Part shown: positions 1,121 through 22,210 of the stretch, in pieces
Layout: each line of letters begins with the position of its first letter
Numbering within the stretch: position 1 is the first letter of the stretch
Translations under genes and position numbers: made by a program
Notes under the pieces: generated by a model
Told to the model about the DNA's origin: nothing
The model's database searches: none
The model's input: only the letters and a program-made list of their open reading frames with translations
From: Roseibium aquae
GTDB taxonomy: Bacteria > Pseudomonadota > Alphaproteobacteria > Rhizobiales > Stappiaceae
Direction: 5' to 3'
Length of the DNA stretch: 64,000 nt
Assembly: GCF_008711285.1 (NCBI RefSeq)
Contig: NZ_VXDC01000001.1
Span: 372,001 to 436,000, forward strand

Positions 1121-1169
1121 TGGTAGCGGGAGAGGGACTCGAACCCCCGACACGCGGATTATGATTCCG
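1121..1169. repeat. Left attachment site (attL), 49-bp tRNA-Met 3' fragment
   Basis: The sequence is identical over 49 bp to 22162-22210 and diverges at the next base on either side (T at 1170 against C at 22211; A at 1120 against T at 22161). It corresponds to the anticodon arm, variable loop, T arm and 3' CCA end of the tRNA-Met gene on the minus strand. There is no 5' half here, so it is not a functional tRNA but the duplicated core left by site-specific integration. Confidence 0.93.
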
Positions 1170-1184
1170 TAAACTTTTATTCTC

Positions 1185-1333
1185 GAATCCTTGGTGTCCG
1201 AACGCGAATCCTTCCTAAATTGTTGACAATATGAGGATTTATGCCATTTAAAGCACCCGTATGGACCGACATAAAGGGATGAATCCTTGCCTCAGGGATT
1301 CGTTGAGTCGGTACGGAGTCGGTACAAGGATTC
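1185..1333. repeat. GAATCCTT iterons and tandem GAGTCGGTAC repeats upstream of int
   Basis: GAATCCTT occurs at 1185-1192, 1206-1213 and 1281-1288, with its inverted form AAGGATTC at 1326-1333. Between them GAGTCGGTAC is repeated in tandem at 1305-1314 and 1316-1325 (11-bp period). An equivalent GGTCGGTAC/GAGTCGGTAC pair and one AAGGATTC lie near the other end of the island (22027-22082), and three more GAATCCTT follow int. The layout fits arm-type binding sites for the integrase or its excisionase. Confidence 0.7.
1219..1250 (+). promoter_or_regulatory. Candidate int promoter with ATTGT-TG-ACAAT inverted repeat
   Basis: TTGACA at 1223-1228 is followed 16 bp later by a weak -10-like CATTTA (1245-1250). 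The -35 lies in a small inverted repeat, ATTGT (1219-1223), TG, ACAAT (1226-1230). The 12-mer AATTGTTGACAA recurs at 3140-3151, ahead of the small-gene operon, suggesting one regulator for both. Confidence 0.4.
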
Positions 1334-1338
1334 GAAGA

Positions 1339-2817
1339 ATGGCCACTACCCGCGACGCACTGACCGCAACTCATGTCCTGGAGGCTGTCCAACTGGCGGA
1401 GAAGGGGACGGAGAACTTAAGGGACTGGTCAGACGTTCGCGAGGAAGGACTGAGGATCCGTGTACGCCGGTATAAAGCCACGTGGCTTTTCCGTTTCCGG
1501 AACTCCACTGTCACTCTTGGCCCGGCTAATCGTTGGACGCCGAAACAGGCTCGTGAATTGGCCTCTCACATTCGAGGAATGCTCCGCTCTGGACTAGATC
1601 CTCGCCCGTGGGTTGACGCTCGACTCGCCGGAGCCTCGCATGACGAAGCGGCCGGGGTGGTTCTCCGGAGGGAGGGAAAAGAGCGGCAGGACTGGACGAT
1701 GGAAACGCTCGTCCAGCGCTACCTAGAAGATCACATCAAACAAGGAAGGGTCGTTCGCGGCGTTCGGCGTCCGCCGTCAGCCGCGACGGCAAGAGATGTC
1801 GAAGCCGTTCTATCGTCTGATCCCTTCAGCGATATCGCATCGCTGCTTGCGCGAGAACTGGACGAACGGAGCCTTGAGGACTTCCGGGACGAAATGGCGG
1901 CCGAGCATGGCGGCTCTGCTTCCCGGAAAGCGCTGGCCTACACCAAGGCCGCGTTAAACTGGGCGAGACGCCATCATTCCGCAGCGGCTGGACTCGCGGG
2001 CGTCTCCGGCTGGTGGCGCGATGTGGCCTCTGTCCACGTCGAGCGAAGCAAGGACAGAATGCCGACGATTGAAGACGTCGGCATGACCCTTGCCTTAGCG
2101 GAATGCTTCCGCCGGGCACCGGGTAGGACTATCAACACCGAGGCATCAGATCGAACCATACTCGGATTACGGCTGCTCGCGTTTACCGTCCAGCGGCGCG
2201 CCATTGTCGGAATTGAACGCGGTTTTCTCATTGACGACGAGCGGCAGGGAGACGGCTGGGGCATTCTCTATATTCCGCCGCACCTTATGAAATCCCGACG
2301 GGAACACGTCCTCCCGATCCCTCCGGTTGCCATGCAGCTATTGACTCCAGCGGCCGAGGCGTCAAAAGAGAAAGGATCTCAGTATCTGCTGCCTGCATCG
2401 CGTTCCGGCAGAACCGAAAGCGACGTTCCGTTACACGGCGCATCATTGAATAGGATGCTGGCTCGGCTGCGTGGTCGGGACGAGATAGGAAAAGCGCGAG
2501 GCGCGCCGGACCTGCTCGTAAGAGCTGGCGTCACCGTGCCGGACTGGTCTCCGCACGACCTAAGAAGGACCTTCGCGACAATCGTCGAGGATGAGACGAC
2601 GCGGGGCGATGCCGTGTCGGCAGTACTCGATCACGCGCAAGGCGGTGCTCGGAGTTCAACTCAAGATGCCGCCGCGATTACCCGGATCGCGTATTCCAGG
2701 GCGCAACGGTTGCCTCTCAAGCGGATCGCCATGGAGCCATGGTGCGAGGCCGTCGAGGCCGCTTACCGAGAAGCTCTGCCGAAGGCCGAGGAAATTGTGG
2801 CTTCGCTCGCTAAATGA
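1339..2817 (+). CDS. int: Tyrosine-family site-specific integrase
   Basis: The product is a 492-residue tyrosine recombinase, counting from the ATG at 1339. An upstream in-frame ATG at 1261 would place the DNA repeats inside the coding region and is less likely. The N-terminal domain contains RWTPKQARELASHIRGMLRSG, an arm-binding-like segment seen in P4-type phage integrases. The catalytic domain shows the first arginine in TVQRRAIVGIE (R286/R287), the box II HDLRRTF (H406, R409), LDH (H432) and the nucleophile in AYSRAQ (Y452). It should catalyse integration at and excision from the tRNA-Met att site 170 bp upstream. The gene is isolated, with iterons on both sides. Confidence 0.95.
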   Translation: MATTRDALTATHVLEAVQLAEKGTENLRDWSDVREEGLRIRVRRYKATWLFRFRNSTVTLGPANRWTPKQARELASHIRGMLRSGLDPRPWVDARLAGASHDEAAGVVLRREGKERQDWTMETLVQRYLEDHIKQGRVVRGVRRPPSAATARDVEAVLSSDPFSDIASLLARELDERSLEDFRDEMAAEHGGSASRKALAYTKAALNWARRHHSAAAGLAGVSGWWRDVASVHVERSKDRMPTIEDVGMTLALAECFRRAPGRTINTEASDRTILGLRLLAFTVQRRAIVGIERGFLIDDERQGDGWGILYIPPHLMKSRREHVLPIPPVAMQLLTPAAEASKEKGSQYLLPASRSGRTESDVPLHGASLNRMLARLRGRDEIGKARGAPDLLVRAGVTVPDWSPHDLRRTFATIVEDETTRGDAVSAVLDHAQGGARSSTQDAAAITRIAYSRAQRLPLKRIAMEPWCEAVEAAYREALPKAEEIVASLAK

Positions 2818-2992
2818 GATAGGTGCGGAGGGAGTTCTAGGTCCTCTTCCCACAACAAATTGATTTCATTATTTTTTCAGAGCGACCAGAAGCCCGGAGC
2901 GGCGTCGGATGATCCGACGTGCACCTGTTTGTGTACGCTCCTCCCCGTTTTGACAACATTTCGAATCCCAGTCGGTTGGATAGTCCCCACGC

Positions 2993-3116
2993 GAATCCTT
3001 ACACGAGTCCTCGCGCGCTCTTCGAGACCGGACGTCGCCGTGCATTGAGTCCTTTGCCACCGCCAATTGAATCCTTAAATAAAAAAACCAAGTCTTAAAG
3101 TAATCTTCGAATCCTT
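2993..3116. repeat. GAATCCTT iterons downstream of int
   Basis: Perfect GAATCCTT copies lie at 2993-3000, 3069-3076 and 3109-3116, all in the same orientation, with a degenerate GAATCCCA at 2962-2969. Together with the four copies upstream of int, that is seven perfect copies of an 8-mer within about 2 kb, far above chance. They probably bind the integrase, an excisionase or an initiator. Confidence 0.65.
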
Positions 3117-3203
3117 ATAGCGTAGATGATGAAGCAGCTAATTGTTGACAAAATGACGTTAATCAGTTTTTGAGTGCCAATCTAATATTTTCACTATAGA
3201 TAC

Positions 3204-3240: not shown

Positions 3241-3302
3241 AGTCGCTCGAAAATGTCGGCGCGACGGGTTTCAATTTCTCATGAGCAAGAAAAGGAGACT
3301 TC

Positions 3303-3644
3303 ATGAGTGACGAGTGTAGGAAGTATCTGATTGAGCAGGACGACGGTCCGGATCTGCGGTTCACGGGAAAAAGAATTGCGTCCGCCGCGTCCAGTACCGA
3401 ACGCCAGAGCGGGGTTTACAGCGGACAGGTCGGCACCTGGGATGAGTTAGAGCTCTATCAGACAACCGCGGGCAGCTTCGTCTGCGTCTTTGAGAATTGC
3501 ACGGCATGGCAGGGAGAACGCAATGTCCGGCGCACCACCGTCGCCAACGACGCGACGGCGGTCATCAACTTTTTCGGTCAGGGCTGGCTCGCGAAAATGA
3601 TCTACGACGAAGCCGGCATTGAGAATGTCCAAGACGTCGCCTGA
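3303..3644 (+). CDS. Hypothetical protein, first gene of island small-gene operon
   Basis: The product is 113 residues from the ATG at 3303, preceded by AAGGAGACTTC. I do not recognise the family. It has a mixed alpha/beta pattern with FVCVFENCTAWQGERNVRR in the middle, followed by a helix containing NDATAVINFFGQGWLAKM, and no membrane segment or signal peptide. It heads six co-directional small genes between the integrase and a strong terminator, a position that in mobile elements often holds accessory or anti-defence genes; that is inference from location only. Confidence 0.7.
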   Translation: MSDECRKYLIEQDDGPDLRFTGKRIASAASSTERQSGVYSGQVGTWDELELYQTTAGSFVCVFENCTAWQGERNVRRTTVANDATAVINFFGQGWLAKMIYDEAGIENVQDVA

Positions 3645-3718: not shown

Positions 3719-3958
3719 ATGGAGTTCAACTGGAAACCCGAGTTCCACGTCACCACTGATCAAACGCGAATCGGTTCCAACGTCATCTGGAGCGACGTTT
3801 TCCCGATCGATGACCGCTTCCGCTGGGTAATACACATCATCCCGCAGTCCCCTGAAAAAGAGAAACGTGGCGTTTCTGACACGTTTGTAGAAGCGATCGC
3901 GGTCGCCGAGTCTGCCATGCGGGAAATCGCTACGGAGATCGAAGCCGAAGCGGCATGA
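3719..3958 (+). CDS. Hypothetical small protein in island operon
   Basis: The product is 79 residues from the ATG at 3719, with a strong AGGAGG (3709-3714). The first half is rich in aromatic and beta-prone residues (FNWKPEFHVTTDQTRIGSN, RFRWVIHIIPQ). The second half is a single predicted helix ending in the acidic run EIATEIEAEAA. No family is recognised. Its stop overlaps the next start (ATGA at 3955-3958), so the two are translationally coupled. Confidence 0.65.
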   Translation: MEFNWKPEFHVTTDQTRIGSNVIWSDVFPIDDRFRWVIHIIPQSPEKEKRGVSDTFVEAIAVAESAMREIATEIEAEAA

Positions 3959-4254
3959 CCATTCTCACCTCACTCGCACCCATGCAACTTCTTGCTCTCG
4001 CGCCGAGTTGTTGTCGGGACTGCCCCAGCGCGCGGCGGATCGGGGATGGCATTCGCGCACTCCGGCTGATCGGAGATATGACGCCGGATGATGTCGAGGA
4101 TATCGCGGAACAAGCTTGCGCCGGATGCGCGACACAACGAGCGCAGGCGCATTTTGGAAAATACCCGACGGATCCAGATGGTGTGAAGACGGACATCTGG
4201 GTCCGGATGTACCCACACGGAGACCACCTTGGACCGATCACACACGGATTATAG
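3955..4254 (+). CDS. Hypothetical cysteine-rich small protein in island operon
   Basis: The product is 99 residues and the start overlaps the preceding stop (ATGA). The N-terminal half has CCRDCPS near residues 19-25 and a second cysteine pair in EQACAGCATQ near residues 53-61, spacing compatible with a four-cysteine metal site (C-x2-C ... C-x2-C). The sequence ends in a strand-rich segment (VKTDIWVRMYPHGD). Function unknown; a zinc-binding DNA- or protein-interaction module is possible. Confidence 0.6.
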   Translation: MTILTSLAPMQLLALAPSCCRDCPSARRIGDGIRALRLIGDMTPDDVEDIAEQACAGCATQRAQAHFGKYPTDPDGVKTDIWVRMYPHGDHLGPITHGL

Positions 4255-4263
4255 GAAAAAAGC

Positions 4264-4470
4264 ATGACGGCAGACGACGTTATTCGGGCTCATTTCGAGT
4301 CTCTGAAACCCGCTCCGGAAGAAGTCCAGGCCATGATCAACCAGTGGCCCGTTATCGCCGAGACGGTCGACGAAGCTGAGCGGGCTTGGCAGCTCGGTTG
4401 GACCTTGGATCTCGCCGTCTTTTTCTCGACGGCAGATATCGATACCGAGGATGACGATGGCGGAACATAA
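4264..4470 (+). CDS. Hypothetical strongly acidic small protein in island operon
   Basis: The product is 68 residues from the ATG at 4264. Acidic residues greatly outnumber basic ones, and the C terminus ends in DIDTEDDDGG. The centre is helical with several tryptophans (VQAMINQWPVIAETVDEAER, AWQLGWTLDLAVFF). Its 3' end overlaps the start of the next gene by about 20 bp. Small, very acidic proteins in mobile elements are sometimes DNA mimics that block restriction enzymes; here that is only a hypothesis. Confidence 0.55.
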   Translation: MTADDVIRAHFESLKPAPEEVQAMINQWPVIAETVDEAERAWQLGWTLDLAVFFSTADIDTEDDDGGT

Positions 4471-4951
4471 CAACCCGAAGGTCCTTGAGATCCTTCAGCG
4501 CGAAGGTTGCGAACACTCACCGGCTGATCTCGCTCGGATGCGTGCGGAAGAAGAACAGAAGTGGGTCGATGACGGTAACCGTCTGGATGACATCGAAGAA
4601 ATCGCCTGGTTCATCGAGCGCATCATTCCGGATCTCCACCAAGGCGACGACGACAATATCCTGGTTGCGAAAGAAGTCGCCTTCGAGCGCGGCTTTAAGG
4701 ACGCGATAACCGAGAGGCGTTTTGATGTGTCGGTCTGGAATACGACAAGCGGCGACATCATCCGATGCGAACGCGACCTGACACCTGATGAACTCGCAGA
4801 AATCGAAGTCGAGTTCAATGACGAGCCGTTTGCGGATGTCGTGATTGATGAAGAGCGCATCTTCAAAAGACGTGCAGACGAGGCCTTGGCATGGCCCGTC
4901 GTGATCGAGCCTGTAACACCGGCTCAGTCTCTGGGACAGGAGGAGGATTGA
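4451..4951 (+). CDS. Hypothetical acidic protein in island operon
   Basis: The product is 166 residues from the ATG at 4451 (a second in-frame ATG lies at 4457). It is rich in Asp and Glu. It shows a long helical stretch (DDIEEIAWFIERIIPDLHQG), a central beta-prone block (RFDVSVWNTTSGDIIRCERD) and another acidic helix (LTPDELAEIEVEFNDEPFAD). I see no catalytic motif, membrane segment or signal peptide. It is followed without a gap by the next gene (GAT TGA ATG). Unknown function. Confidence 0.6.
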   Translation: MTMAEHNNPKVLEILQREGCEHSPADLARMRAEEEQKWVDDGNRLDDIEEIAWFIERIIPDLHQGDDDNILVAKEVAFERGFKDAITERRFDVSVWNTTSGDIIRCERDLTPDELAEIEVEFNDEPFADVVIDEERIFKRRADEALAWPVVIEPVTPAQSLGQEED

Positions 4952-5338
4952 ATGACCAGTTCTCCGTCGAGCATAGAACCGATGGCACGCGAAGAATATG
5001 AGGCCATTTGCCGTGAACACGGCCATGACATCCTTGACGACGATACACTTTCGTTGCTCGTCGAATTGCACGAGCTGGATAGTATCGATTTGTGTCTACC
5101 GAGCATGCCATTGATCGAAGGTGTCGAACTTGCGATAAACCTCCAACGTGGTCAGACGGTGAAAATCGAGGAGCCCATTCCAACGCCCCGCACTCCAACG
5201 AAACACATTGACGAAATGGGGAGGGTTGTTCCGGAGAAATACGGTCAACTCTGGGAGGGGTGCGAACAATGTGGGCGGGAACCGGTCCAAATGCCGCTCT
5301 TCCTTTGCGAGGATTGTTGGCCAAAGGCTTCCACTTAA
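4952..5338 (+). CDS. Hypothetical protein with C-terminal zinc-finger-like motif, last gene of island operon
   Basis: The product is 128 residues, starting immediately after the previous stop. The C-terminal end holds two CxxC pairs, in WEGCEQCGREP and FLCEDCW, separated by about 12 residues, a likely zinc knuckle. The N-terminal part is acidic and helical (ILDDDTLSLLVELHELDSID). The gene closes the operon and is followed 16 bp later by a strong rho-independent terminator. Function unknown. Confidence 0.6.
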   Translation: MTSSPSSIEPMAREEYEAICREHGHDILDDDTLSLLVELHELDSIDLCLPSMPLIEGVELAINLQRGQTVKIEEPIPTPRTPTKHIDEMGRVVPEKYGQLWEGCEQCGREPVQMPLFLCEDCWPKAST

Positions 5339-5508: not shown

Positions 5509-5883
5509 TCACAGCCCTGGAGGCAGCGGCGATCCGTCGTCAACCCCATCACCGTCGTCGTCATCGTCATCCTTCTTCTTCGGCGGCCGATAACCCGGAC
5601 GCAGTTCCGGGAAATTTTTATCCCGGCTCCGCGTCCACATGCTAAAATACGCGAGGTCGTCGCGCCTGCCGCCGCTCGGCTGACAATGTAGTCTCCAGGG
5701 TTCGCGAAGCTCGCGCAGAATGTAGGCTAAGTACATTCTCAAGCTTTTCGGTGTTCTGTTCCAGATTTCGGCGGTTTCCGGAAGCTCCATGAAGTCCCTT
5801 TTCGAGCCCGATGCTGAGATCTTTTTGACCAGTGCGCCGATATCCATTTGCCTCAAGTGCAACGATTTTTTCATTTTGTCCAT
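5509..5883 (-). CDS. Hypothetical protein downstream of the relaxase
   Basis: The product is 124 residues. The start is set at ATG 5883 because the minus strand there reads GGGAGGTCAGATC just upstream, a good ribosome-binding site. The N-terminal half is basic and helical, the middle contains RTPKSLRMYLAYILRELR, and the C terminus has a lysine run followed by a stretch of six aspartates and a Gly/Pro tail. It is the last minus-strand gene of the mobilization block and faces the small-gene operon. No family recognised; a DNA-binding accessory role is possible given its charge pattern. Confidence 0.55.
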   Translation of the reverse strand: MDKMKKSLHLRQMDIGALVKKISASGSKRDFMELPETAEIWNRTPKSLRMYLAYILRELREPWRLHCQPSGGRRDDLAYFSMWTRSRDKNFPELRPGYRPPKKKDDDDDDGDGVDDGSPLPPGL

Positions 5884-6109
5884 GATCTGACCTCCCTTGT
5901 AGCTGCCGTGACACAGGTGTGAATCTCGGTAGCAGCAGCCGTGAAAAAATGCTGGCAATCAGGATAAGCCAGAACAGAGGCCCAGGTTTTCGCCGGCGCC
6001 GACGTCGCATTAAAAACTGATGCTGGAGACGGTCCCGGCAGTCCCGTCGCTTTTTCTGATGCCGGGCAGCCGCCTCGCTAGACTTAAGTTTCCGTTTATC
6101 TGCCCCCAT
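5642..6109 (-). CDS. Hypothetical small membrane protein, overlapping the next gene
   Basis: The ATG at 6109 is preceded by AAGGAGGTCTCA and overlaps the relaxase stop by 14 bp, so initiation here looks real. The first ~75 residues contain a very basic segment (FLMRRRRRRKPG) followed by a hydrophobic helix (PLFWLILIASIFSRLLL), suggesting a single-pass membrane protein. The frame stays open to 5642 and overlaps the 5509-5883 gene in another frame by about 240 bp. Either the two genes overlap, or one frame was extended by a past frameshift and only the N-terminal part is functional. Confidence 0.4.
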   Translation of the reverse strand: MGADKRKLKSSEAAARHQKKRRDCRDRLQHQFLMRRRRRRKPGPLFWLILIASIFSRLLLPRFTPVSRQLQGRSDHGQNEKIVALEANGYRRTGQKDLSIGLEKGLHGASGNRRNLEQNTEKLENVLSLHSARASRTLETTLSAERRQARRPRVF

Positions 6110-7961
6110 TGAGACCTCCTTGAGTGTGCCCAGCAGGCGCTAAATCCAGCTCCGCCCTCCGTTCTTCAGCCATACGGGCAGCCTGCCGCTTGCGAGCGGC
6201 GGTGGCGAGCGCCTTTCGGCCGCCGGCCGCGATCGTCGGATCTTCGGCCAGTGCCGCGCGAGCTTCGGGGACAAGCGAGAGATTTTTCGACAGACGTTCC
6301 CGCTCCTCGCTCCGCGCATCGTCGTATGCCGCCTGCCGGGCCTCGTGAGCCGATTTCAAAATGCGGACCGCCCTCCGCGCCTGGGCGAGGGGACGCGATA
6401 GAGACTCGCGTTCTTCGGCGAGCTTCGAGAGCTCGCGGGCTGCCGCATCGTATCGCCCGGTGGCCCCGGTCGCCCAGGCAAAAATGCCCGCGGGGCGAGC
6501 GGCTCCGGTCTTGAGACGGAGCTCGGTGATGCGGCTGCCGTGGCGAGCGTCCCATGCAGCGCGTTCCTGAGCGGCGGCGGCAAGGCGCTGCCGGGTGTCG
6601 GTCATCTCGGACGACTCCGGAAGGCGATCCGGGCCGGAAAGATGAGTAATCTTCTTTCGGAGTTGAGCCTCCACGCGGTCAAGGTAGCGCCCGGCGGCGG
6701 CTTCCTCCGGAGAGCGAGGTGGGCGCCGTTTTTCGGATGATAGATCGCCCACGGCCGCGCCAGTGTCGCGCTGTATTGGCGTACTAGGCGGTAGAGTATT
6801 CTCGGAATTACCTGTTTGACGCGAATTCAAGGGCTCTTCGGCAGATTCCGCCGTTGACGATCGTCTTCGGACAGCGGCGGCGAGCGCGGCATCTAGACGA
6901 CCGTCAAACGCTTCTGCGAGCCGCCGCGCCTGGTCGGCGGCAGCTTCGGAAACCTGTTCGGCACCGGACTTCTTTTTGCCGCGAAGGGGGGCACGGGCCG
7001 TGCCCAATCCAGATCGCTCCGGACGGATTTTTTCTGATTTTTCGGATGTTGGATCACTCACGGCAGGTTGAGAATTGCTCTCAGCGGGCTTCCTAGAGCG
7101 TTGAGTGTTTTCGGTCTTGCTCTCATTACGCGAAATCTGATCCGGAGCGGCTTCCATCGCGTTCCGGATCGCGGCGCGCTTTTCCCCGGTCAGGCGGTCG
7201 AGGGAGCCGATTTCCGCGCCGTTGCGGGCGACGACGAAGACACCGGATTTGCGACCGGGCGCGATTTCGTAACCGGCGTTCCGGACGGCTTCAGCGCCGC
7301 CGGATGCCCAGGCACTCCGGATCGTGGCGCGGACTGCGGACAGGCCGATGCCCTCCCGGGAGAGTGCCTGCCGATGAGCGGGCGAGGCTGCGGACTGCGG
7401 TTTGTCCGGATCGGGGCCGTGAGCGGCGGTCAGCCAATCAGCGACGTCGGCGCGGCCGTGCTGACGTAGCCAGCGGACGGCACTGGCGTGATGTCGGGCG
7501 AGGACAGGCTCCTCGCCGAGTTCAAATTCAATGAGCCGTGAAGCAGTTTCAAGTTTGATTTTCTCGAAGCCGGATTCAAGCACCGCGCCGGACGGGGAGA
7601 CGCGGCCGAGGACAAGGTGGGCGTGGGAATGGCCTTCGCCCGACCGACGTTCCTTGTCGTGCACGACCAATGCGGCGGCATGGTCGGCGGCGCCCAGATG
7701 TTCACGGACGATTTCGGCGGCGCGGACAAGTTCGTCGTCAGTCATCGCGTGTGACGGCGACAAATATATATGCAGAGCGGCCGCGTCGGCGGATGTCGAA
7801 TCCCTCAGGCGCTGCATGTCGGCGACGGCTCCGGAGAGTTCGGTCGCGAGCGTCCCGCCCAAGATCATCGTTCGCGGATTGTTCTCCGGTTTGAGCAGGT
7901 GCGAGATCAGAGCGCGGGATTCGCGCTGGGTCCGCGCGTGACGGGATACGCCGGCGATCAC
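6096..7961 (-). CDS. Mobilization relaxase (MobA-like, HxHxH type)
   Basis: The 621-residue relaxase nicks oriT and leads strand transfer. The histidine triad is visible as GEGHSHAHLVLGR (HSHAH at 111-115). Before it are the conserved HLLKPENN and LHIYLSPSHAMTDDELVRAA segments (Y66 is the only tyrosine in the early part), as in MOB-type relaxases of alphaproteobacterial plasmids. The rest is long, Ala/Arg/Glu-rich and probably coiled coil (LSKLAEERESLSRPLAQARR), without a helicase or primase domain. Its start overlaps the mobC stop (ATGA at 7958-7961), so the two are translationally coupled. The canonical N-terminal catalytic tyrosine is not obvious, which leaves the nucleophile uncertain. 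Confidence 0.88.
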   Translation of the reverse strand: MIAGVSRHARTQRESRALISHLLKPENNPRTMILGGTLATELSGAVADMQRLRDSTSADAAALHIYLSPSHAMTDDELVRAAEIVREHLGAADHAAALVVHDKERRSGEGHSHAHLVLGRVSPSGAVLESGFEKIKLETASRLIEFELGEEPVLARHHASAVRWLRQHGRADVADWLTAAHGPDPDKPQSAASPAHRQALSREGIGLSAVRATIRSAWASGGAEAVRNAGYEIAPGRKSGVFVVARNGAEIGSLDRLTGEKRAAIRNAMEAAPDQISRNESKTENTQRSRKPAESNSQPAVSDPTSEKSEKIRPERSGLGTARAPLRGKKKSGAEQVSEAAADQARRLAEAFDGRLDAALAAAVRRRSSTAESAEEPLNSRQTGNSENTLPPSTPIQRDTGAAVGDLSSEKRRPPRSPEEAAAGRYLDRVEAQLRKKITHLSGPDRLPESSEMTDTRQRLAAAAQERAAWDARHGSRITELRLKTGAARPAGIFAWATGATGRYDAAARELSKLAEERESLSRPLAQARRAVRILKSAHEARQAAYDDARSEERERLSKNLSLVPEARAALAEDPTIAAGGRKALATAARKRQAARMAEERRAELDLAPAGHTQGGLNGGR

Positions 7962-8410
7962 GGCGCGCTCGCTTCGCCACCTCCGGACTCATGCGAGGTG
8001 ACGGCGGTATGCAAATCGCGGACGACGGCGGTCAGGCGGTCGAGCGCGGCGGCATCAACGCGGCTGCCCTGGTGGGCATGGCGGCTCAATTGATTCAAAT
8101 TGTTGCCGATTTTGCCTACCTCGCCCGTCCAACGACCGACGGCGCGGGCGAGATCGGTGCGCGCTGCGCGCCGGGGCGGGACCGGCGCACCAGCGGCCCG
8201 GGTCAGGACTTCGCGCGTCCAGGTGCCTGGCCCGCAGCCGGCCGCTTCGGCCGCGGCATCGATCGCGGCGCGTTCGGCGGGCAGGAGTCGGGCGGAGACG
8301 CTCGCCGTCCGCTGCCGCGTCTCGGAGCGGCGACGGCGGGGAGCGGTAGTCGTCTCGGCGGGCGTGATGTCGTTGAGCGTCACAGCGGCGTCTCCTTTTG
8401 TCAGCGCCAA
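7958..8410 (-). CDS. mobC: MobC-like relaxosome accessory protein
   Basis: The product is 150 residues. After a basic N terminus (APRRRRSETRQR) comes a ribbon-helix-helix-like segment (ASVSARLLPAERAAIDAAAE) and then the hallmark MobC motif KIGNNLNQLSRHAH (about residues 99-112). MobC proteins bind oriT and help the relaxase open the strands. It is the first gene of the mob operon, directly upstream of the relaxase and next to the candidate oriT. Confidence 0.88.
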   Translation of the reverse strand: MALTKGDAAVTLNDITPAETTTAPRRRRSETRQRTASVSARLLPAERAAIDAAAEAAGCGPGTWTREVLTRAAGAPVPPRRAARTDLARAVGRWTGEVGKIGNNLNQLSRHAHQGSRVDAAALDRLTAVVRDLHTAVTSHESGGGEASAP

Positions 8411-8520
8411 CGGCGCGGGTGGGGGTCAACGGGGGAGTCTTCTCCCCCTTGCCAGATCGGGCGGTTTACCGCCCGCTGCTGGCTCCCTTCCCGGAGGAAG
8501 CTCCCTTCCCGGAGGAAGGA
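8404..8520. other. Candidate origin of transfer (oriT) beside mobC
   Basis: Just upstream of mobC are three hairpins in about 70 bp: GCGCC-AAC-GGCGC (8404-8416), GGGGGA-N6-TCCCCC (8431-8448) and GGGCGGT-TT-ACCGCCC (8459-8474). A perfect tandem repeat follows. Inverted repeats next to a mobC-relaxase operon are the usual form of oriT; the nic site cannot be assigned by eye. Confidence 0.5.
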
Positions 8521-14171: not shown

Positions 14172-15392
14172 TCACCGCTTCCGGATCGACTGTGTCTCCA
14201 CGTCGTATTCCAGACTCACGATCGATCCATCCTTGATGGCCGCGACCGCCTTGGCGACCGTGTCCGGACGCACGTAGAACCATTCTCTCGGGCGGACATT
14301 CCTGCCGAAGCGATCCGGAACGGAAATGTTAGCACGAGCGCCTTCGAAAAAGGCATGCAGGATGTGTTCGACCCGGTCACGGCGCATACCGACCAACTCG
14401 AAAGTCGCGACTATTTCGACGGGGGCAAAAAGAAAGGTCGGATCGTTTCTCGCGTCGGCAATGCGGCGCTGGACGTCGCCTGACGTCACCCCGATCTTGT
14501 GAAGGATAAGCCTGTCCCGCTGGATGTCCGGTTGGGTGGATTTACTCCGGGCGACGTAAACCACACCATTCACGATGGCCTTGTCGTCCTGCCACCTGTC
14601 GTCCAGAGGGCCGAAGCCGCGCCCCTCGACGCGACGTGCGGTCGGATCGTCATACATACCCTTTTCGAAGGAACGCATCAGGATGTCGCTTTCGGTCCCG
14701 TTCGAATAGATCACGCGTAACCGGTGATCCGAGCGGCCGCCCTTCATGGTGCGTTCGCCCTTCTCGGCGACATAGGCGTATTGCCCCTTCTGGATGAAAA
14801 AGTCGCCTTCCACGGTTTCCGTGCCGCCCTTCTTCGTGAAGGGAACGAGTTCGCGATCCCCACGCTGGACAGCGGCATGAATGTCCTCGAACAGAGGTTC
14901 GAAGATCTTGAAATCCCGGCAGGGGCGGCGTTCCGCGCGATGGTCGCTCACGTTCCTTTCCGCCGCGGGTGTCACCTTCGACGGCTTGACCAGTTCCGCA
15001 TCGAGCTCGAAATCTTCATCGTCGAAAATTTCATCGAGTGACAAGTCGAAGGCCTCGTCTTCCGGAACTTCGTCTCGCCATGAAGGTTGAGACGGCTCCG
15101 CAGGCTCTTCTTGCAGGACAAGCATGCCGGACGCATCGTCGCCGAGAAGATCGACGGCATAGGCGCCGTCCCGGACTCGTGCCAGCTTTCGTCCCAGAAT
15201 GGCTTCGTTGATGTCAACGGCGTCACGGTCCGGCGCGCGGCCATTCTCCTTGAAGAAGGCGGTCGCCTGTTCAAGAACAGCCCGGTCCTTTTCCAGGTCC
15301 GCGGATGCACCACCGCTTCTTCCGGGTTTCACATCGAGCAACCCGTAAGGGTCATCATCTTCGAATATGTCGTCCAGCGTTCGGCGCGCCAT
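14172..15392 (-). CDS. GIY-YIG nuclease (T5orf172-like) of MTase-helicase-nuclease system
   Basis: The product is 406 residues. The C-terminal third is a GIY-YIG domain of the T5orf172/MUG113 type: VVYVARSK (277-284) replaces GIY, HKIGVTSGDVQRRI (298-311) is the YIG strand with the catalytic Arg helix, VEHILHAFFEGAR supplies the Glu (E342), and REWFYV follows. The N-terminal half is very acidic (DEAFDLSLDEIFDDEDFELD) and has a module around FFKENGRAPDRDAV (46-59) that resembles the helicase C terminus. It follows the helicase after 3 bp through the junction TGATCCATG. Likely the DNA-cleaving component of a restriction or phage-defence system. Confidence 0.85.
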   Translation of the reverse strand: MARRTLDDIFEDDDPYGLLDVKPGRSGGASADLEKDRAVLEQATAFFKENGRAPDRDAVDINEAILGRKLARVRDGAYAVDLLGDDASGMLVLQEEPAEPSQPSWRDEVPEDEAFDLSLDEIFDDEDFELDAELVKPSKVTPAAERNVSDHRAERRPCRDFKIFEPLFEDIHAAVQRGDRELVPFTKKGGTETVEGDFFIQKGQYAYVAEKGERTMKGGRSDHRLRVIYSNGTESDILMRSFEKGMYDDPTARRVEGRGFGPLDDRWQDDKAIVNGVVYVARSKSTQPDIQRDRLILHKIGVTSGDVQRRIADARNDPTFLFAPVEIVATFELVGMRRDRVEHILHAFFEGARANISVPDRFGRNVRPREWFYVRPDTVAKAVAAIKDGSIVSLEYDVETQSIRKR

Positions 15393-15395
15393 GGA

Positions 15396-17444
15396 TCAGG
15401 CCTCCGCCGCCCGCATGCGTTCGGCTTTTTTCGCCCGGATATAGGAATGGGCTTCGCCGAGACGCTTTTCGAGAGGATCGGCCGCGTTGGGATTGGGCGC
15501 CCGTCCCTCCTGTTCACGGAACCGTTTGATCCGGGGCCAGAGGGCGACTGCTTCCGCCTCGGTCATCTGGATCCTCTGGGCGACCATCATCGCCTGGATC
15601 TGCGACAGCACCTGACTGTCGAGCGCCTTCGAGGCAACGTCATAGGATTCACGGAAAGGGTTCACGCTGTCGATCAGATCGATATCGAGGTCCCGGACGT
15701 TGATGAACTTCTTCACCATCCTCAAAAGTCCGGAATAGTCCCGTTCGGCGGCGTCTTCGCCGATTTCGCCGCCCGAACCTTCGCCTTGCGTGTATTCGGT
15801 GTCATTCTCTTCGGCCTGCCGCTGTGCTTCCCGGCGCGCCATGTTCATCAGGTTCATCCGGGCGGCTAGGTGCTGGCGGACTTCCTCGGTTTCATCAACC
15901 GACAGATTCTCGTAGCTGCGTTCGATGATGTCCGTCATCGCCATCTGGGTGGCGACTTCTGGGGCGATGTCGTTGGCAATCGTCCGGCGATCCATCGACT
16001 GGCAGGCCTTGGCGACCAGATCGTCCATGTCGTTTTCGATGATGGCCTTGGAGCGATCCGTTGAAGGCATCGCCAGCCCTTTGATCTCGACATGGATGGT
16101 GCCGTTTTCATCCTGCCAGGCGTCGCTCTCATCGGCGTCGTCCGGACGGCGATGAAACTTGAAGCTGGGGGCCAGAACCTGCTCCATCAGCAAAGCGCCG
16201 GAGATTGCTTTCAGCATGTCGTTGACGGCATCGACCACAATACCTTCTTCGGCAGCCGGTTCCGCGATCAGGTTCGTGAATTGCGCATGGGGCTTTCCGG
16301 GGGCGTCCCTGGTCGCGCGCCCTATGATCTGGATGATTTCCGTGAGGGATGATCGATAGCCGACCGTCAGGGCGTGCTCGCACCAGACCCAGTCGAACCC
16401 CTCCTTCGCCATACCGAGGGCAATGATGATGTCGACGTCTTCCTTGTCCTTCGCCTTCTGAAGGGAAGAAACGACCTTCGGTCGTGTCGCGCTGTTATCA
16501 TCGACAAGGTTGGCGACCTTCAGCACCCTTCCGTCCGACGCCCGCTTGATCAAGTCGTACCCGGTGTCTGGATCGATGCCCCGATGGTCGCCGATAGTGT
16601 CCATGATTGCGCCGACCTGCTGGTCCTTGTGGTCATAGGCTTCCGCCGACATGACATGCGGAATGTGAACGATGGTCTTCTTCGACGTGTCGAGGACATC
16701 CATCAGGGCGTCGACATACCGTCCCCGGTAGAAGTGATAACCGATCCCCAGGGTCTTCAGGTGCTCATAGCCATCCAGCTGCTCGTAATAGGAATAGGTG
16801 ACGCTGGTGAACTTGGCTTCGTCCTCCGGGCGCAAGACGGGTGCGTCGTCGCCCCGGAAATATGATCCGGTCATCGCCATGATGTGCGCCTGGTCCCGGG
16901 CGACCAACTCCCGGAGAATTTCACCAAGACGGTTTTCCTCCGACGCACTCACATGATGGAACTCGTCGATGGCCACCATGGACTTGTCGAAGGCTTCGAC
17001 GCCGACTTCCTCGAAGGCGAAGCGGAAGGTCGCATGGGTGCAGACCAGGACCCGGTCAGGAGACGCCATGAAATCCTTGAAAGCCTTCACCTTGGCTCTC
17101 GCGGCGTCGCCCGCATCCGTCCCGGCGGTGCAGAGGTTCCAACGAGGTTCCACTTGCCAATCAGCGAAAAAGCCGTGGCTGGTCAGGTCCGTGGAGCTGA
17201 AGGACGATCCGATGGAGCGCTCAGGAACGGCGACAATGACCTTCTCCAGTCCCTGATGATGAAGCTTGTCCAGCCCGAGGAACATCAGGGCGCGGGATTT
17301 CCCGGCGGCCGGCGGCGCCTTCAGGAGCAGGCATTGGGCATTGCGGGCGTCGTAGACTCGGGCCTGCATGGGGCGCATACCCATTTCGTTTGTCGTCTTC
17401 GACTTGCCGCTCTGGGAATAGGTGACTTTGACGAGATCGGTCAT
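15396..17444 (-). CDS. SF2 DEAD/DEAH-box helicase of MTase-helicase-nuclease system
   Basis: The product is a 682-residue superfamily 2 helicase/translocase. Visible motifs are Walker A APPAAGKS (43-50), Walker B AIDEFHH (158-164), motif III-like MTGSYF, and in the second RecA lobe ALGMAKEGFDW and QIIGRATRD (motif VI, 372-380). The C-terminal end has IKRFREQEGRAPNPNAADP, an element also present at the start of the nuclease. It lies between the methyltransferase and the GIY-YIG gene with 3-bp gaps. In restriction systems such motors translocate DNA or open it for a nuclease; that role is inferred from context. Confidence 0.9.
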   Translation of the reverse strand: MTDLVKVTYSQSGKSKTTNEMGMRPMQARVYDARNAQCLLLKAPPAAGKSRALMFLGLDKLHHQGLEKVIVAVPERSIGSSFSSTDLTSHGFFADWQVEPRWNLCTAGTDAGDAARAKVKAFKDFMASPDRVLVCTHATFRFAFEEVGVEAFDKSMVAIDEFHHVSASEENRLGEILRELVARDQAHIMAMTGSYFRGDDAPVLRPEDEAKFTSVTYSYYEQLDGYEHLKTLGIGYHFYRGRYVDALMDVLDTSKKTIVHIPHVMSAEAYDHKDQQVGAIMDTIGDHRGIDPDTGYDLIKRASDGRVLKVANLVDDNSATRPKVVSSLQKAKDKEDVDIIIALGMAKEGFDWVWCEHALTVGYRSSLTEIIQIIGRATRDAPGKPHAQFTNLIAEPAAEEGIVVDAVNDMLKAISGALLMEQVLAPSFKFHRRPDDADESDAWQDENGTIHVEIKGLAMPSTDRSKAIIENDMDDLVAKACQSMDRRTIANDIAPEVATQMAMTDIIERSYENLSVDETEEVRQHLAARMNLMNMARREAQRQAEENDTEYTQGEGSGGEIGEDAAERDYSGLLRMVKKFINVRDLDIDLIDSVNPFRESYDVASKALDSQVLSQIQAMMVAQRIQMTEAEAVALWPRIKRFREQEGRAPNPNAADPLEKRLGEAHSYIRAKKAERMRAAEA

Positions 17445-17447
17445 GGA

Positions 17448-20126
17448 TCAGGCGCCTTTCTTCAGCTCGGCAACGCGGTCGGCATATCGCTTGAAGAGGT
17501 GCTCCAGCCGCTCGGTATCGTTCCGGAAAGGACGCCCGATATACATGGACTCCAGCAGTTCATCGTTGCGCCGATGCGCCTGCCTCAGATCGTCCGGCAT
17601 CTTGTCCGGGTCGTAGAGTTGCGCGATGGTCTTTGGGTGATGATCGGCACGCACCAGAAGGATTTCACGCGCGCTTTCTTCAAGCGCGGATTTCTGCACT
17701 TCCGTGAAATCCGGAACGGGGAACGTGTTCCAGCCGAGGGTATTGGAATAGCGAAAGTCGGATTTCAGTTTACCGCAGACTGTAGCGACCCAAACGAGGT
17801 GTAACCTCGACCCAATTATCGACATACACCAAGTGCCCCCATCGTAAATTGCGAATGCAAGGTTCGAAATGATCGCATCATCGCCCCGATAGTCGACAGG
17901 TAGGTATGGTCTGTTTTCTGATGACACGCTGGGAACTACAACGACATTATTCTCGGCTACATTTTGAATCTGAAGAAATCGATAAGGTGTTTTTGCGTGA
18001 GGCCTTGTTGTTGGCGCCTTACTAATTGCTCGCATATCGGCGACCTCTTTGAACCGTCGCGCAAATTCAGGTATCGCAGAAGCTTCCTGAGCGTCGTGAT
18101 GATCAACCCAAATGCAATAGCGCTCTATCCCCCTTATCAACTCTTGTGACCCCATGTATCTCTTAATAAATTTCTCGGCCTGCGGTGCACTATTAAGCAA
18201 GGCCGATCGTTCATCGGGGGTAAGACTTAAATGGCCTCCGTCGGTTGGCATGTTTCCTTTTTCCATCCTCGGCAAACGAAACAACGGCGGAGAGGCAAGA
18301 ACAAATACGTCTGGAGCGTCTAGTAAGTAGGCATTAATGTTGAAGCATGAGTAAGAGACGCCGCCGTCAAATATTTTATTCTCTTTTTTACTCCTATTTC
18401 TAAGCCCAACTACTACACATATGACGGCGGCATTCGACGCGGCATTATTTTTCCATTTAAAGGAACGATGAGCAAAATCGATTTCTAACCCGTCACGCAG
18501 AATGTTTGACCACAGGGCTCCAACGGCTTGACCTTGGCAAATCGAATTCGTTGATACCAATGCCGACTTGGCATTTTTTCCGCGAATGTACTGTGCCGCC
18601 TTGAAAATCCAGCATGAGACGAAATCAATTCGGCGGTAGGCCTCCAAATGCCCTTCAAGGACATAATCCATGTCAGCGTTTTGTTCAGGCGACCGTGAGT
18701 TGTCGCCTAAAAATGGCGGGTTCCCGCAAATGAAAACCTCTTCAATGAGATCGGGAGGGGGACATACGGACTCCCAGTTCACCCTCAGGGCGTTTTCGCA
18801 GACGATGTGTCCGCCATCCCGGAGAGGTAGCGCGGGCGGCATGCGACCGAAGACGTCCGCAAAACGCGCATTCGCCTGATACTCGGCAATGAAGAGCGCC
18901 AGTTTCGCCGTTTCCGCCGCGAAATCGGTGATTTCGATGCCGTGGAAATTGCTGAGGGAAACGGCGGAAAACATTTCCATCGCATGGCCCGGATCGATTT
19001 CCTCTAACCGCTTCAGGATCCGGATTTCCCTGTCCCGAAGTTCCCGGTAGGAGACAACGAGAAAGTTTCCAGATCCGCAGGCAGGGTCGAACACCCGGAT
19101 CTTGGATATCCGTTGCAGGACGGCGCGCAGGGCCGAAGCCTTGGTCCAGGCCTTCTCGATGGCCTCGTCCAGGTCGTCCAGGAACAGCGGGCCGATCACC
19201 TTCAGGATGTTCGGCACGCTGGTGTAATGCATGCCGAGTTCCGACCGGGCCTTGGGGTCGGCAATGGACTGGATCATCGAGCCGAAGATGTCCGGATTGA
19301 TCTCCTTCCAGTCCATCCCTGCGGCGTCTTTCAGGTACTGAAAGGCTGTTCGCGAGAAGATGGGTACCGCAATTCCTTCCGCGAACAGGCCGCCGTTCAC
19401 ATAAGGAAAAACATCTGCCCATTTAGGCAGGTCGTGTCGCTTGTCCGGCGACGTCGCCATGGCCGTGAAAGCCGCAAGGATTGCCTCTTGGGCCGTCTCG
19501 CCTGCGTTCCCGCCATAATCCGTCAGACAACGGGCAAAGAGATTGTCGGGAAGGATTCCCGTATCCTCCGCGAACAGACAGAAGACGATCCGCGTCATGA
19601 ACTGGTTCATGACATGCCGGTTCTCGTCTTTCCCCCATTCCGGATTGGCCTTGATCAGGGCGTCATACAGTTTCGCGAGGCGGCTGGTGGCGCGAATATC
19701 GACCGGGTTTTCATCAGCCGCCTTGAAGCGCTCGAACCCTGCCAGCGGCAGGAAGAAGCCGAAATTGTCCTTGAGTTCCGCGTAGTCGCAAAACCGTGCC
19801 TCACCGGATTTCATGTCCCGGGCGGCAACGGACGTTCCGTCCGTTGTGATGGCGACCCGGACCTTGCGGGTCTTCGTAGCCTTGGATCCACAGAGGGTTT
19901 CCAGCGCCTCTTCAGTCTTCCCTTCTTCGGCGGGAAGGAAGTGGAACTTTCCGTTGAGCAGTGTACCGCCTGGAAGATCCGTCCGGTTCATCGCTCCGGA
20001 CTTCAACTTGGAAATGTTGGCATTTGAGGTGCCTATGGCCTCGGCCAAGGCAATCGGGAAAACTTCCGGCTCGAATTCTCCGGCAAAAAGCCGCTCAAAT
20101 GCTTCTTCAACTTCAACGACGTTCAC
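17448..20126 (-). CDS. Class I SAM-dependent DNA methyltransferase (MmeI/YeeA-like)
   Basis: The product is 892 residues. The gamma-type N6-adenine methyltransferase motifs are clear: motif I DPACGSGNF (347-355), motif IV CGNPPF (467-472), preceded by the helical-spacer segment FMTRIVFCLFAEDTGILPD typical of MmeI-like enzymes and followed by a specificity region and a C-terminal helical domain (QAHRRNDELLESMY). The N terminus lacks the D...ExK nuclease motif found in single-chain MmeI restriction-modification enzymes. It is the first gene of an operon with a helicase and a GIY-YIG nuclease, an order that from memory matches yeeA-yeeB-yeeC of Bacillus subtilis. It should methylate host sites for self/non-self discrimination. 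Upstream (20156-20163) is one GAATCCTT. Confidence 0.92.
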   Translation of the reverse strand: MNVVEVEEAFERLFAGEFEPEVFPIALAEAIGTSNANISKLKSGAMNRTDLPGGTLLNGKFHFLPAEEGKTEEALETLCGSKATKTRKVRVAITTDGTSVAARDMKSGEARFCDYAELKDNFGFFLPLAGFERFKAADENPVDIRATSRLAKLYDALIKANPEWGKDENRHVMNQFMTRIVFCLFAEDTGILPDNLFARCLTDYGGNAGETAQEAILAAFTAMATSPDKRHDLPKWADVFPYVNGGLFAEGIAVPIFSRTAFQYLKDAAGMDWKEINPDIFGSMIQSIADPKARSELGMHYTSVPNILKVIGPLFLDDLDEAIEKAWTKASALRAVLQRISKIRVFDPACGSGNFLVVSYRELRDREIRILKRLEEIDPGHAMEMFSAVSLSNFHGIEITDFAAETAKLALFIAEYQANARFADVFGRMPPALPLRDGGHIVCENALRVNWESVCPPPDLIEEVFICGNPPFLGDNSRSPEQNADMDYVLEGHLEAYRRIDFVSCWIFKAAQYIRGKNAKSALVSTNSICQGQAVGALWSNILRDGLEIDFAHRSFKWKNNAASNAAVICVVVGLRNRSKKENKIFDGGVSYSCFNINAYLLDAPDVFVLASPPLFRLPRMEKGNMPTDGGHLSLTPDERSALLNSAPQAEKFIKRYMGSQELIRGIERYCIWVDHHDAQEASAIPEFARRFKEVADMRAISKAPTTRPHAKTPYRFLQIQNVAENNVVVVPSVSSENRPYLPVDYRGDDAIISNLAFAIYDGGTWCMSIIGSRLHLVWVATVCGKLKSDFRYSNTLGWNTFPVPDFTEVQKSALEESAREILLVRADHHPKTIAQLYDPDKMPDDLRQAHRRNDELLESMYIGRPFRNDTERLEHLFKRYADRVAELKKGA

Positions 20127-20328: not shown

Positions 20329-20334
20329 CCTTGC

Positions 20335-20454
20335 TTAGAGCAACCTTCCGACTACAAAAAACCAGGAAGCCAGTGCATGGAAATCCCACACCACAACCGC
20401 CCGGTAGTCCGTACCGTCAGGCTTGCTGGCTTCGATAGCGAGCAACACCTTCAT
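20335..20454 (-). CDS. Small ORF (39 residues) with strong RBS and own terminator
   Basis: The minus-strand ATG at 20454 is preceded by AGAAGGAGAACGCC, an excellent ribosome-binding site, and the frame ends in TAA directly before a strong terminator. The peptide starts MKVLLAIEASKPDGTDYRAV and ends with an aromatic/hydrophobic stretch (WDFHALASWFFVVGRLL). It falls below usual gene-calling cutoffs. RBS, short frame and terminator together suggest a genuine small gene between the methyltransferase and the DUF3102 gene. Function unknown. Confidence 0.6.
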   Translation of the reverse strand: MKVLLAIEASKPDGTDYRAVVVWDFHALASWFFVVGRLL

Positions 20455-20930: not shown

Positions 20931-21833
20931 TCAGCAGAGAACCGCTCGCAACGTTTCTCTACCACGTCGTAGGAGCTCTGGAACATCGGACACCAAAATC
21001 CGCTCCCATGCCATCGAATGAGCGATGTCATGCAGAAATGCCGATAGTTCTGCCCAACTGCCGGGTTCGTGTGTCTGACGATCTAGAAACGTATTGCTGA
21101 CAAGCTTTATTTCTGACCCGGAGCGACGTTGTGTAAGTTGCTCGAGAGCATCGGTAAGCCACTGGGCGCGAGTACGTAAATCTTTTTCGAGTTTTTTCTT
21201 GTTCGGTTTTCCCGCTTCAGCTTCCTCGATGATTTTGAGGACTTCGACCAGGCGCTCAATGACTAAAGGAATGAGCTCGTCACGCGCTCGGTCAGCCAAT
21301 GACCGAAGTTCCTCGGACGCAGATCGCTTATTGGCCTTAAGTTTTCTTGGAGGATCCGGTACATCGGCATTCTTTTCCGCGAGCTCGCGATGATGCTTCA
21401 CAATCTTGCTGACGTCGGATACCCGAAGCCGTTCCCCCCTTTCAAGACATTCTCTCACTTCCGCGAACGCGGTGTAGGGGGCTGTCGCGAGACGGACCAA
21501 CGCGGTCTGCGGTAAGGCTAAGCCTTCGTCCGTCAGAAACAGTGGATTGTCCCTAAACCGCAAGTACACGTTGATAGCGTCCCGGGCCCATTGCTCCGAC
21601 ATGCCGGTTTCCGCTTCGACCCAAGGGAGCCAAGCACCGTGAGGAAGGGTGTCACGCCAATGCGCCAGCTTTTCTCCTGCTTCCATGAGAGATCGCGCAC
21701 CAGCGATTAGGTCTGCACGGATCGCAATCGCATCGGATCTGAGCTGTTCGCGAAGAGCGGCGGGAATAGCATCGTAGTTGAAGCCAACTGCAATGTTGTC
21801 TCCACCATTCTTAATGGTCGCAGATTTGGTCAT
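20931..21833 (-). CDS. DUF3102-domain mobile-element protein
   Basis: The product is 300 residues. The first ~95 residues fit DUF3102: ALREQLRSDAIAIRADLIAG, SLMEAGEKLAHWRD, then HGAWLPWVEAETGMSEQWAR and DAINVYLRF, the pattern of proteins that are frequent on integrative and conjugative elements. The middle is basic and helical (PPRKLKANKRSASEELRSL, KPNKKKLEKDL). It lies alone at the right end of the island behind a perfect 23-bp palindrome. A DNA-binding or regulatory role in element maintenance is likely but unproven. Confidence 0.75.
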   Translation of the reverse strand: MTKSATIKNGGDNIAVGFNYDAIPAALREQLRSDAIAIRADLIAGARSLMEAGEKLAHWRDTLPHGAWLPWVEAETGMSEQWARDAINVYLRFRDNPLFLTDEGLALPQTALVRLATAPYTAFAEVRECLERGERLRVSDVSKIVKHHRELAEKNADVPDPPRKLKANKRSASEELRSLADRARDELIPLVIERLVEVLKIIEEAEAGKPNKKKLEKDLRTRAQWLTDALEQLTQRRSGSEIKLVSNTFLDRQTHEPGSWAELSAFLHDIAHSMAWERILVSDVPELLRRGRETLRAVLC

Positions 21834-21885
21834 GAAAACACCCCGGAACGAATTGCTCCTACCGGACTATCTGATGAAAGTTCTT

Positions 21886-21908
21886 AAATCCCCAATAATT
21901 GGGGATTT
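21886..21908. promoter_or_regulatory. Perfect 23-bp palindrome, candidate operator for the DUF3102 gene
   Basis: AAATCCCCAAT (21886-21896), a single A, then ATTGGGGATTT (21898-21908): an 11-bp perfect inverted repeat centred 64 bp upstream of the DUF3102 start. The size and symmetry suit a dimeric helix-turn-helix repressor. The 328-bp region 21834-22161 holds this, the right-end repeats and no supported gene. Confidence 0.7.
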
Positions 21909-22026
21909 GAAATCGCGGGAGCCACATGGCGTTGGCTAAGGCTGTGCAGCCATTCCGGGGTTTGCCACCGCGATCTTATATGTCGGTCGCTCAAGGAATC
22001 GTTTCCGTGGATTTCGGACCAATCTC

Positions 22027-22082
22027 AAGGATTCATCCATTCGGAGGTTCAAGCGCTCATGAGGTCGGTACAGAGTCGGTAC
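22027..22082. repeat. Right-end copies of integrase-associated repeats
   Basis: AAGGATTC lies at 22027-22034, GGTCGGTAC at 22063-22071 and GAGTCGGTAC at 22073-22082, continuing with AA as at the left end. These mirror the elements between attL and int, so both island ends carry the same two motifs, as expected for arm-type sites. Confidence 0.65.
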
Positions 22083-22161
22083 AAATTGCCGAAACAGCAA
22101 TTATACGCTACCGGTCTCAATTTGCTGATTGAGTTAAATCTCTGTATTCATTTAGAAAATT

Positions 22162-22210
22162 TGGTAGCGGGAGAGGGACTCGAACCCCCGACACGCGGAT
22201 TATGATTCCG
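22162..22210. repeat. Right attachment site (attR), inside tRNA-Met
   Basis: The 49 bp are identical to 1121-1169 and form the 3' part of the intact tRNA-Met gene, from the anticodon stem to the CCA end. Insertion here keeps the tRNA whole on this side while leaving the displaced 3' fragment at the left end. Confidence 0.93.

Follow-up and report, generated by a model that had tools for sequence, protein, structure and literature searches.

A putative 21-kb integrative and mobilizable element with defence cargo in a tRNA-Met gene of Roseibium aquae and its modular relatives

The 64,000-nt stretch analysed here (the window), from the genome of Roseibium aquae, probably a marine bacterium, carries, next to an intact tRNA-Met gene, a segment of 21,041 bp that is delimited by a perfect direct repeat and combines an integrase gene, mobilization genes, a replication gene and genes of defence type. 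We describe this segment, a probable integrative and mobilizable element (IME), together with four related elements (E1 to E4) from three other genomes, with which it has a common backbone of an origin of transfer (oriT), mobC and the relaxase gene mob. The attachment (att) repeats and the main genes and sites are listed below.

1121-1169: tRNA-distal att repeat, 49 bp, 100% identical to 22162-22210
1307-1327, plus strand: candidate integrase arm-type site, two copies of GTCGGTAC 11 nt apart (starts 1307 and 1318)
1339-2817, plus strand: tyrosine integrase, 492 aa; the open reading frame (ORF) opens at 1261 and the start at 1339 was chosen; PF13356, PF00589, phrog_1
6096-7961, minus strand: relaxase, MobA/VirD2-like, 621 aa; PF03432, E 4.4e-9
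7958-8410, minus strand: MobC/NikA-like relaxosome protein, 150 aa; PF21983, E 4.1e-10, and PF05713, E 1.8e-7
8420-8490, minus strand: candidate oriT upstream of mobC, with an inverted repeat (8458-8475) beside TGGCAAGGGG
8805-10061, plus strand: GmrSD_N (DUF262) protein; PF03235, E 3.6e-25; PADLOC NsnA, E 1.2e-65, and PD-T4-2_A, E 2.1e-36
10058-10813, plus strand: RiboL-PSP HEPN protein, its gene overlapping the GmrSD_N gene; PF18735, E 2e-8
11168-12583, minus strand: probable ColE2-type replicase/Rep with a C-terminal helix-turn-helix (HTH); homologues of 84% in E1 and 91% in E3
14172-15392, minus strand: YeeC-like GIY-YIG (T5orf172) protein; PF10544, E 1.2e-11
15396-17444, minus strand: YeeB-like DEAD helicase; PF00270, E 2.5e-6
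17448-20126, minus strand: DnmA-like (MmeI-family) DNA methyltransferase; PF20473, E 8.5e-103; MmeI 5hr4, E 1.4e-155
22064-22084, plus strand: second candidate arm-type site, two copies of GTCGGTAC (22064 and 22075), 95% identical to 1307-1327
22162-22210: tRNA-side att repeat, 49 bp, identical to the left copy
22162-22238, minus strand: tRNA-Met (cat), intact, the attachment gene

The two repeat copies are 100% identical over 49 nt, and the right one consists of the final 49 nt of the tRNA gene, including its CCA end. In the host genome (4.40 Mb in 37 contigs, completeness 100), identical copies of this core occur at two places only, which are both ends of the element. This confirms the bounded unit with a perfect repeat and an intact tRNA-Met that an earlier note on this DNA had proposed. 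The extent of the element, previously given as 1121-22210, is 1121-22161 plus one repeat copy. No annotated or supported gene covers the left copy, which should be free to drift, so that 0 mismatches in 49 positions point to a recent event. Chance was considered as the source of the perfect 49-nt repeat and was rejected. The G+C content of the insert is 56.5%, that of the right and left flanks 60.8% and 60.6%. The core had also been called unusually long; this does not hold, as a review of IMEs gives a range of 8-60 bp in its account of their repeats (PMC5704250) and copies of 45-52 bp lie near the same tRNA in relatives.

The integrase gene begins 169 nt inward of the left repeat copy. Its product matches PF13356 (E 8.2e-10) and the phrog_1 integrase family (E 4.4e-21), and its match to PF00589 (E 7.1e-6, 26.3 bits) falls just under the cut-off of 27.1; by eye we discern a plausible R-K-HxxR-H-Y set, presumably that of the family. 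Four copies of GTCGGTAC are found in the element, as one tandem pair inside each end, and none in the remainder of the window. These pairs may represent the arm sites of the integrase. Of the 297 genomes of the order, eight contain integrase homologues, the host's included, and among the 45 genus genomes only that of the host does. None of the seven relatives scanned with 1.5-kb flanks lies beside a tRNA-Met, one lying beside a tRNA-Gln; the relatives therefore lend no support to tRNA-Met as the site of this integrase.

The mobilization module is formed by mobC and, downstream of it and overlapping by 4 nt, the relaxase gene. Upstream of mobC, TGGCAAGGGG is kept in all five aligned elements, and the inverted repeat beside it is exact in this element and less well kept in E2 to E4; this block is our candidate oriT on the strength of its conservation. 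The N-terminal part of the relaxase has counterparts of 70-79% identity in three other genomes. At E up to 1e-30, relaxase homologues were found in five of the 87 genomes from the bacterial family, the host's among them, and at E up to 1e-15 in five of the 297 from the order; in a plasmid collection only 5 of 72,556 records matched, all below 60% identity, and no match was obtained in viral contigs. No family belonging to a conjugation apparatus was recognized by Pfam among the element ORFs scanned, and neither a type IV secretion system nor a coupling protein of its own, as carried by an integrative and conjugative element, was found. Several features expected of an IME are present: bounding direct repeats, one of them in an intact target gene, its own recombinase and its own relaxase and relaxosome genes.

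The Rep-like protein, taken alone, gives weak matches to HTH and unknown-function families only and no match to a replication family. However, in an alignment of the window protein with six homologues, two of the seven members match PF03090 Replicase (best E 7.1e-9), and a tblastn search of the plasmid collection returned six records (best 50.6%), four of which are annotated as replication initiation protein; two distant loci were found in viral contigs. The term plasmid-type Rep used in the earlier note is thus sound as a probable family assignment. Its other points on gene content, namely a left-end integrase gene, mobilization genes unaccompanied by conjugation genes, a Rep and defence-type cargo, are likewise borne out.

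The related elements are composed as follows.

E1, in G327 contig 20, about 15.7 kb: tRNA-Gln with an adjoining integrase of DUF6538 type, Rep (84%), a Type ISP restriction-modification (R-M) system, mobC-mob, 21-bp repeat
E2, in G327 contig 3, about 16.6 kb: tRNA with a cat anticodon with an adjoining integrase, mobC-mob, 18-bp repeat
E3, in R. polysiphoniae (G009, L034), ends not resolved: DnmABC, a gene of unknown function, Rep and the same mob backbone
E4, in G010, about 18.2 kb: tRNA-Gln with an adjoining integrase of E1 type (81%), mobC (81%), relaxase (75%), 22-bp repeat

Three of the four are thus also bounded by repeats at a tRNA, in agreement with the IME interpretation already advanced in the earlier note. 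The cargo of E2 comprises Dcm, HEF_HK and response-receiver proteins and Vsr; its tRNA was called tRNA-Met by ARAGORN, and we assume that it resembles tRNA-Ile2. Upstream of its mobC (L175:15812-17572), E2 encodes not a ColE2-type Rep but a rolling-circle-like one (Rep_1, PF01446, E 4.1e-4, below the cut-off); by eye, its similarity to the window Rep is limited to the very start of the two proteins. E4 matched neither the ColE2-type nor the Rep_1-like Reps. E3 shares cargo and Rep as well as the mob backbone with our element: its DNA is 92-94% identical over Rep, the counterpart of the gene at 12828-14132 and DnmABC, save the recognition part, with mobC at 64% and the N-terminal relaxase part at 70%. 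However, only a C-terminal part of an E2-type integrase (residues 393-565) was found in E3, and the 39.8 kb read there contained no tRNA. Directly upstream of this partial integrase lies a large serine recombinase gene (L034:3002-4753), which possibly belongs to a second element inserted at the end of E3. Judged by their sequences, the five elements form a family in which a shared oriT-mobC-mob backbone is combined with apparently exchangeable integrases, att sites, Reps and R-M cargo. Our literature searches, which covered open-licence papers and the terms used, showed no description of such an oriT-MobC-relaxase family.

By protein families and gene order, the main cargo (14172-20126) is a predicted DnmA-YeeB-YeeC operon, a cluster already published. 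In a survey of the YeeB helicase, 145 stretches encode a relative; among the best 80 of these, the order methyltransferase-helicase-T5orf172 was found at 77 loci. More than 300 nt separate the first two matches at 21 of the 77 and the last two at 7, and extra genes may sit there. The three exceptions are a locus without an upstream methyltransferase match (L083) and two short contigs ending near the helicase (L089 and L091). The B. subtilis genome, used as a control, matches PF20473 and PF10544. The methyltransferase of a DnmA-YeeB-YeeC system is expected to lack the nuclease motif of MmeI; in our protein, the alignment to MmeI 5hr4 begins at residue 118 (MmeI 137), but MmeI_N is matched over residues 1-159. 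Compared in 50-aa blocks with the copies of R. polysiphoniae and S. indica, the protein is 88-100% identical over residues 1-450 and 94-98% over 801-892, with values of 38-54% over 451-750 and 68% over 751-800. The divergent part overlaps the target recognition domain, placed by Pfam at residues 605-806. This suggests that the recognition part has been exchanged relative to the two relatives, and divergence of this part in otherwise near-identical copies is what would be expected of a working restriction system under selection. Elsewhere in the host genome, a 1515-aa open frame gives a second, weak MmeI_Mtase match (G000:C11:8955-9182, E 1.0e-6). The overlapping GmrSD_N and HEPN genes constitute a candidate second defence system; the HEPN protein had no PADLOC match.

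The tRNA-Met gene is an insertion hotspot in the genus Roseibium. Rightwards from it, mnmA and the genes beyond are collinear in all five relatives aligned. On its left, the genomes have little in common: pairwise comparison of 20 of them over 5-16 kb each gave matches of at least 250 bp in 8 of 190 pairs. A further core copy (45-52 nt, 91-100%) is present on the contig of the tRNA within 75 kb in at least 7 of 24 same-genus genomes (among the matches listed, G003, G004, G006, G007, G008, G013 and G018). Two of them, G004 and G008, form an unoccupied/occupied pair for a different insert: their sequences align through the junction at 92.6% identity over 323 nt, and in G008 a stretch of 11.15 kb separates a 45-bp core copy from tRNA-Met. 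This G008 insert (L120, contig 25, 761-11913) contains genes for an integrase, a lambda-type portal, a gpA terminase and capsid/protease proteins, and appears phage-like, either a phage remnant or a capsid-carrying satellite. Its presence at the same tRNA identifies tRNA-Met as a real insertion site for unrelated elements. Further core copies in G008, about 33 and about 70 kb away, suggest tandem accretion.

From these results we consider the segment to be a 21,041-bp IME in tRNA-Met that carries defence cargo and belongs to a modular family, with a probability of about 0.88. In the proposed life cycle, the integrase would bind the 49-bp cores as well as the putative GTCGGTAC arm sites and release an excised circle, leaving the tRNA intact, and the ColE2-type Rep would keep or copy this circle. 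MobC and the relaxase would nick at the oriT upstream of mobC, a single strand would exit by way of a conjugation channel that a different element provides and, in the recipient, the integrase would insert the circle at tRNA-Met. The defence cargo may pay the element's way: the DnmA-like methyltransferase would mark self DNA, YeeB (helicase) and YeeC (GIY-YIG nuclease) would act on unmarked DNA, and the GmrSD_N/HEPN pair might contribute a second defence.

Several observations weigh against this interpretation. The integrase lies at the tRNA-distal end of the element, whereas in E1, E2 and E4 it adjoins the tRNA. It is of the Arm-DNA-bind_3 type, different from the integrases of those three, and the simplest reading would be that the integrase module has been exchanged in this element. 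No excision factor of the recombination directionality factor (RDF)/Xis kind was recognized among the element ORFs; that the element may still be active, as the earlier note suggested, is no more than possible. Tyrosine is absent from the first 65 residues of the relaxase, as it is in 6 of 6 aligned relaxase sequences. H21 is invariant in these six, and a histidine is used by the MOBV relaxase MobM. A single-sequence model of the relaxase (mean pLDDT 49) was too poor for the histidine question and was not used for a fold search. VirB4 (PF03135) and the coupling protein (PF02534) were not matched in the host genome, which means that any helper would have to be brought in from elsewhere; among 14 control genomes, PF03135 was matched in 1 and PF02534 in 5.

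The flanks are a further point of weakness. An empty site, joining 1120 directly to the tRNA, had been proposed beforehand as a check, and none was found among the relatives searched by flank synteny. This search used ten flank proteins, including the left-flank urea transporter, LysR and secreted protein, over 5-16 kb around tRNA-Met in 20 relatives; neither LysR nor the secreted protein turned up near tRNA-Met in any of the 20, and the transporter gave weak ABC-ATPase matches only (26-31%). Among the 45 genus genomes, 11 (that of the host included) contain the gene for the secreted protein, and in the relatives looked at it lies elsewhere: 3.6 Mb from the tRNA in G007 (contig coordinates) and on another contig in G004 and G008. 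The left junction is therefore marked by the repeat alone. Furthermore, a core copy is also present in the 'unoccupied' G004, at a distance of 67 kb, and the flank shared by G004 and G008 may therefore itself be (older) element DNA. With regard to the cargo, DnmA-YeeB-YeeC gave no protection in B. subtilis, where, in the passages of PMC9973331 on this cluster, deletions were without effect on three phages and the authors speak of a relic; the same passages cite homologues in V. crassostreae whose deletion led to higher phage sensitivity.

Some of these points would fit a trapped or decaying genomic island, that is, a former IME now immobile and retained for the value of its defence genes. The unmatched VirB4 and coupling-protein families, the unrecognized RDF, the unusual end occupied by the integrase and the partial E2-type integrase of the relative E3 all favour such an island, but the left repeat has kept all its 49 positions although free to drift, and the ORFs of integrase, relaxase, MobC and Rep are all open; we regard it as a possible but unlikely explanation. 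Quite improbable, in our opinion, is that we are dealing mainly with a mobilizable plasmid that integrates occasionally, its Rep keeping the circle and integration serving as a backup. Three elements (the one described here, E1 and E3) do encode a Rep of probable ColE2 type and E2 a different, rolling-circle-like one, and a 5,868-bp contig of a genome of the same bacterial family (G348, contig 6, L195) bears a related mobC-mob pair (46-48%) across its ends, with mob at the first base and mobC running off the end, as in a circular plasmid. However, the plasmid collection held no free copy of the Rep/Mob set, and E4 lacks a match to either Rep. The G348 contig appears to be a small circular plasmid whose mob module is a related one; visual inspection also suggested a rep-like gene and a pair resembling toxin-antitoxin genes.

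The tRNA site and the tyrosine integrase would also suit a prophage or phage satellite, and a phage-like insert does use the same tRNA in G008; moreover, a PHROG tail family was matched by the ORF at 3303-3644, though at the level of chance (E 0.052). However, no convincing structural or packaging match was obtained among the ORFs scanned (Pfam, and PHROGs for 10 ORFs, the 68-aa ORF at 4264-4470 being in neither scan), and a relaxase and MobC are present, which makes a phage origin extremely improbable. A wider proposal concerns the whole set: these elements could be 'integrating plasmids' of marine Alphaproteobacteria, with a shared oriT-MobC-relaxase backbone, a relaxase using the invariant H21 in place of the catalytic tyrosine of most relaxases, and integrase, tRNA site, Rep (ColE2-type or rolling-circle) and R-M defence as swapped modules. 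We find this rather doubtful.

The kind of element considered here, an IME, is already known; what is new is this member, delimited by its repeat and carrying a defence operon of debated activity. It resembles the canonical IMEs as outlined in PMC5704250 in its tyrosine integrase, its site at the 3' end of a tRNA, a repeat within 8-60 bp, its own relaxase and the lack of a conjugation apparatus; the review also records Rep and R-M genes in IMEs. However, section 9 of the review, dating from 2017, states that no canonical IME was known in Proteobacteria, whereas our element is alphaproteobacterial, and its main text makes no mention of ColE2 or PF03090, the probable type of the Rep here. IMEs of Mesorhizobium, described in 2021, are likewise alphaproteobacterial and use tRNA sites including tRNA-Met, and frequent switching of the integration mechanism is reported for them; the delimited ones carry relaxases of MOBF (24) or MOBQ (one) in the account given, in contrast to the PF03432 relaxase with MobC/NikA of our element (PMC8627217). 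The cargo follows the order of the B. subtilis and V. crassostreae clusters, an MmeI-like methyltransferase, a helicase and a T5orf172/GIY-YIG protein (PMC9973331, passages on the cluster), and, unlike them, is borne by an IME and has a recognition part divergent among near-identical relatives. The main text of a BREX survey (PMC12839542) mentions neither GIY-YIG nor MmeI.

DnmA-YeeB-YeeC, whose antiphage role differs between the two reported hosts, would thus travel on a small mobilizable element, with the recognition-part divergence that selection on a restriction system would be expected to leave. The five elements also offer a tractable case of one mobilization backbone with varied integrases, tRNA sites and replication proteins, and the tRNA-Met hotspot in Roseibium becomes testable.

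The remaining features of the element are the following.

2993-3116, no strand: control region with GAATCCTT/GAGTCCTT repeats, which are also found at the equivalent place in the four related elements
3303-3644, plus strand: conserved backbone ORF, 113 aa, 68-89% identity in three of the four related elements
3955-4254, plus strand: backbone ORF, 99 aa, 74% in one of the four
4264-4470, plus strand: backbone ORF, 68 aa, 58-72% over 32-50 aa in three of the four
4451-5338, plus strand: two small ORFs, 166 and 128 aa, no family match
5509-5958, minus strand: conserved backbone ORF downstream of the relaxase gene, 39-46% in all four, no Pfam match
12828-14132, minus strand: uncharacterized protein, among the related elements in E3 only (82%)
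20931-21833, minus strand: DUF3102-like protein, PF11300 E 2.7e-4 (below the cut-off), phrog_1733 (unknown function) E 8.2e-10

The control region may act as an operator or contain iterons. We counted 11 repeats of the type AAGGATTC/GAATCCTT within the element, none in the remainder of the window and two in the 13,120 nt further left. A role solely as integrase arm sites was rejected, since the region is also kept in elements that have a different integrase, and GA[AG]TCCTT repeats are found in the corresponding distal-end 600 nt of all five elements.

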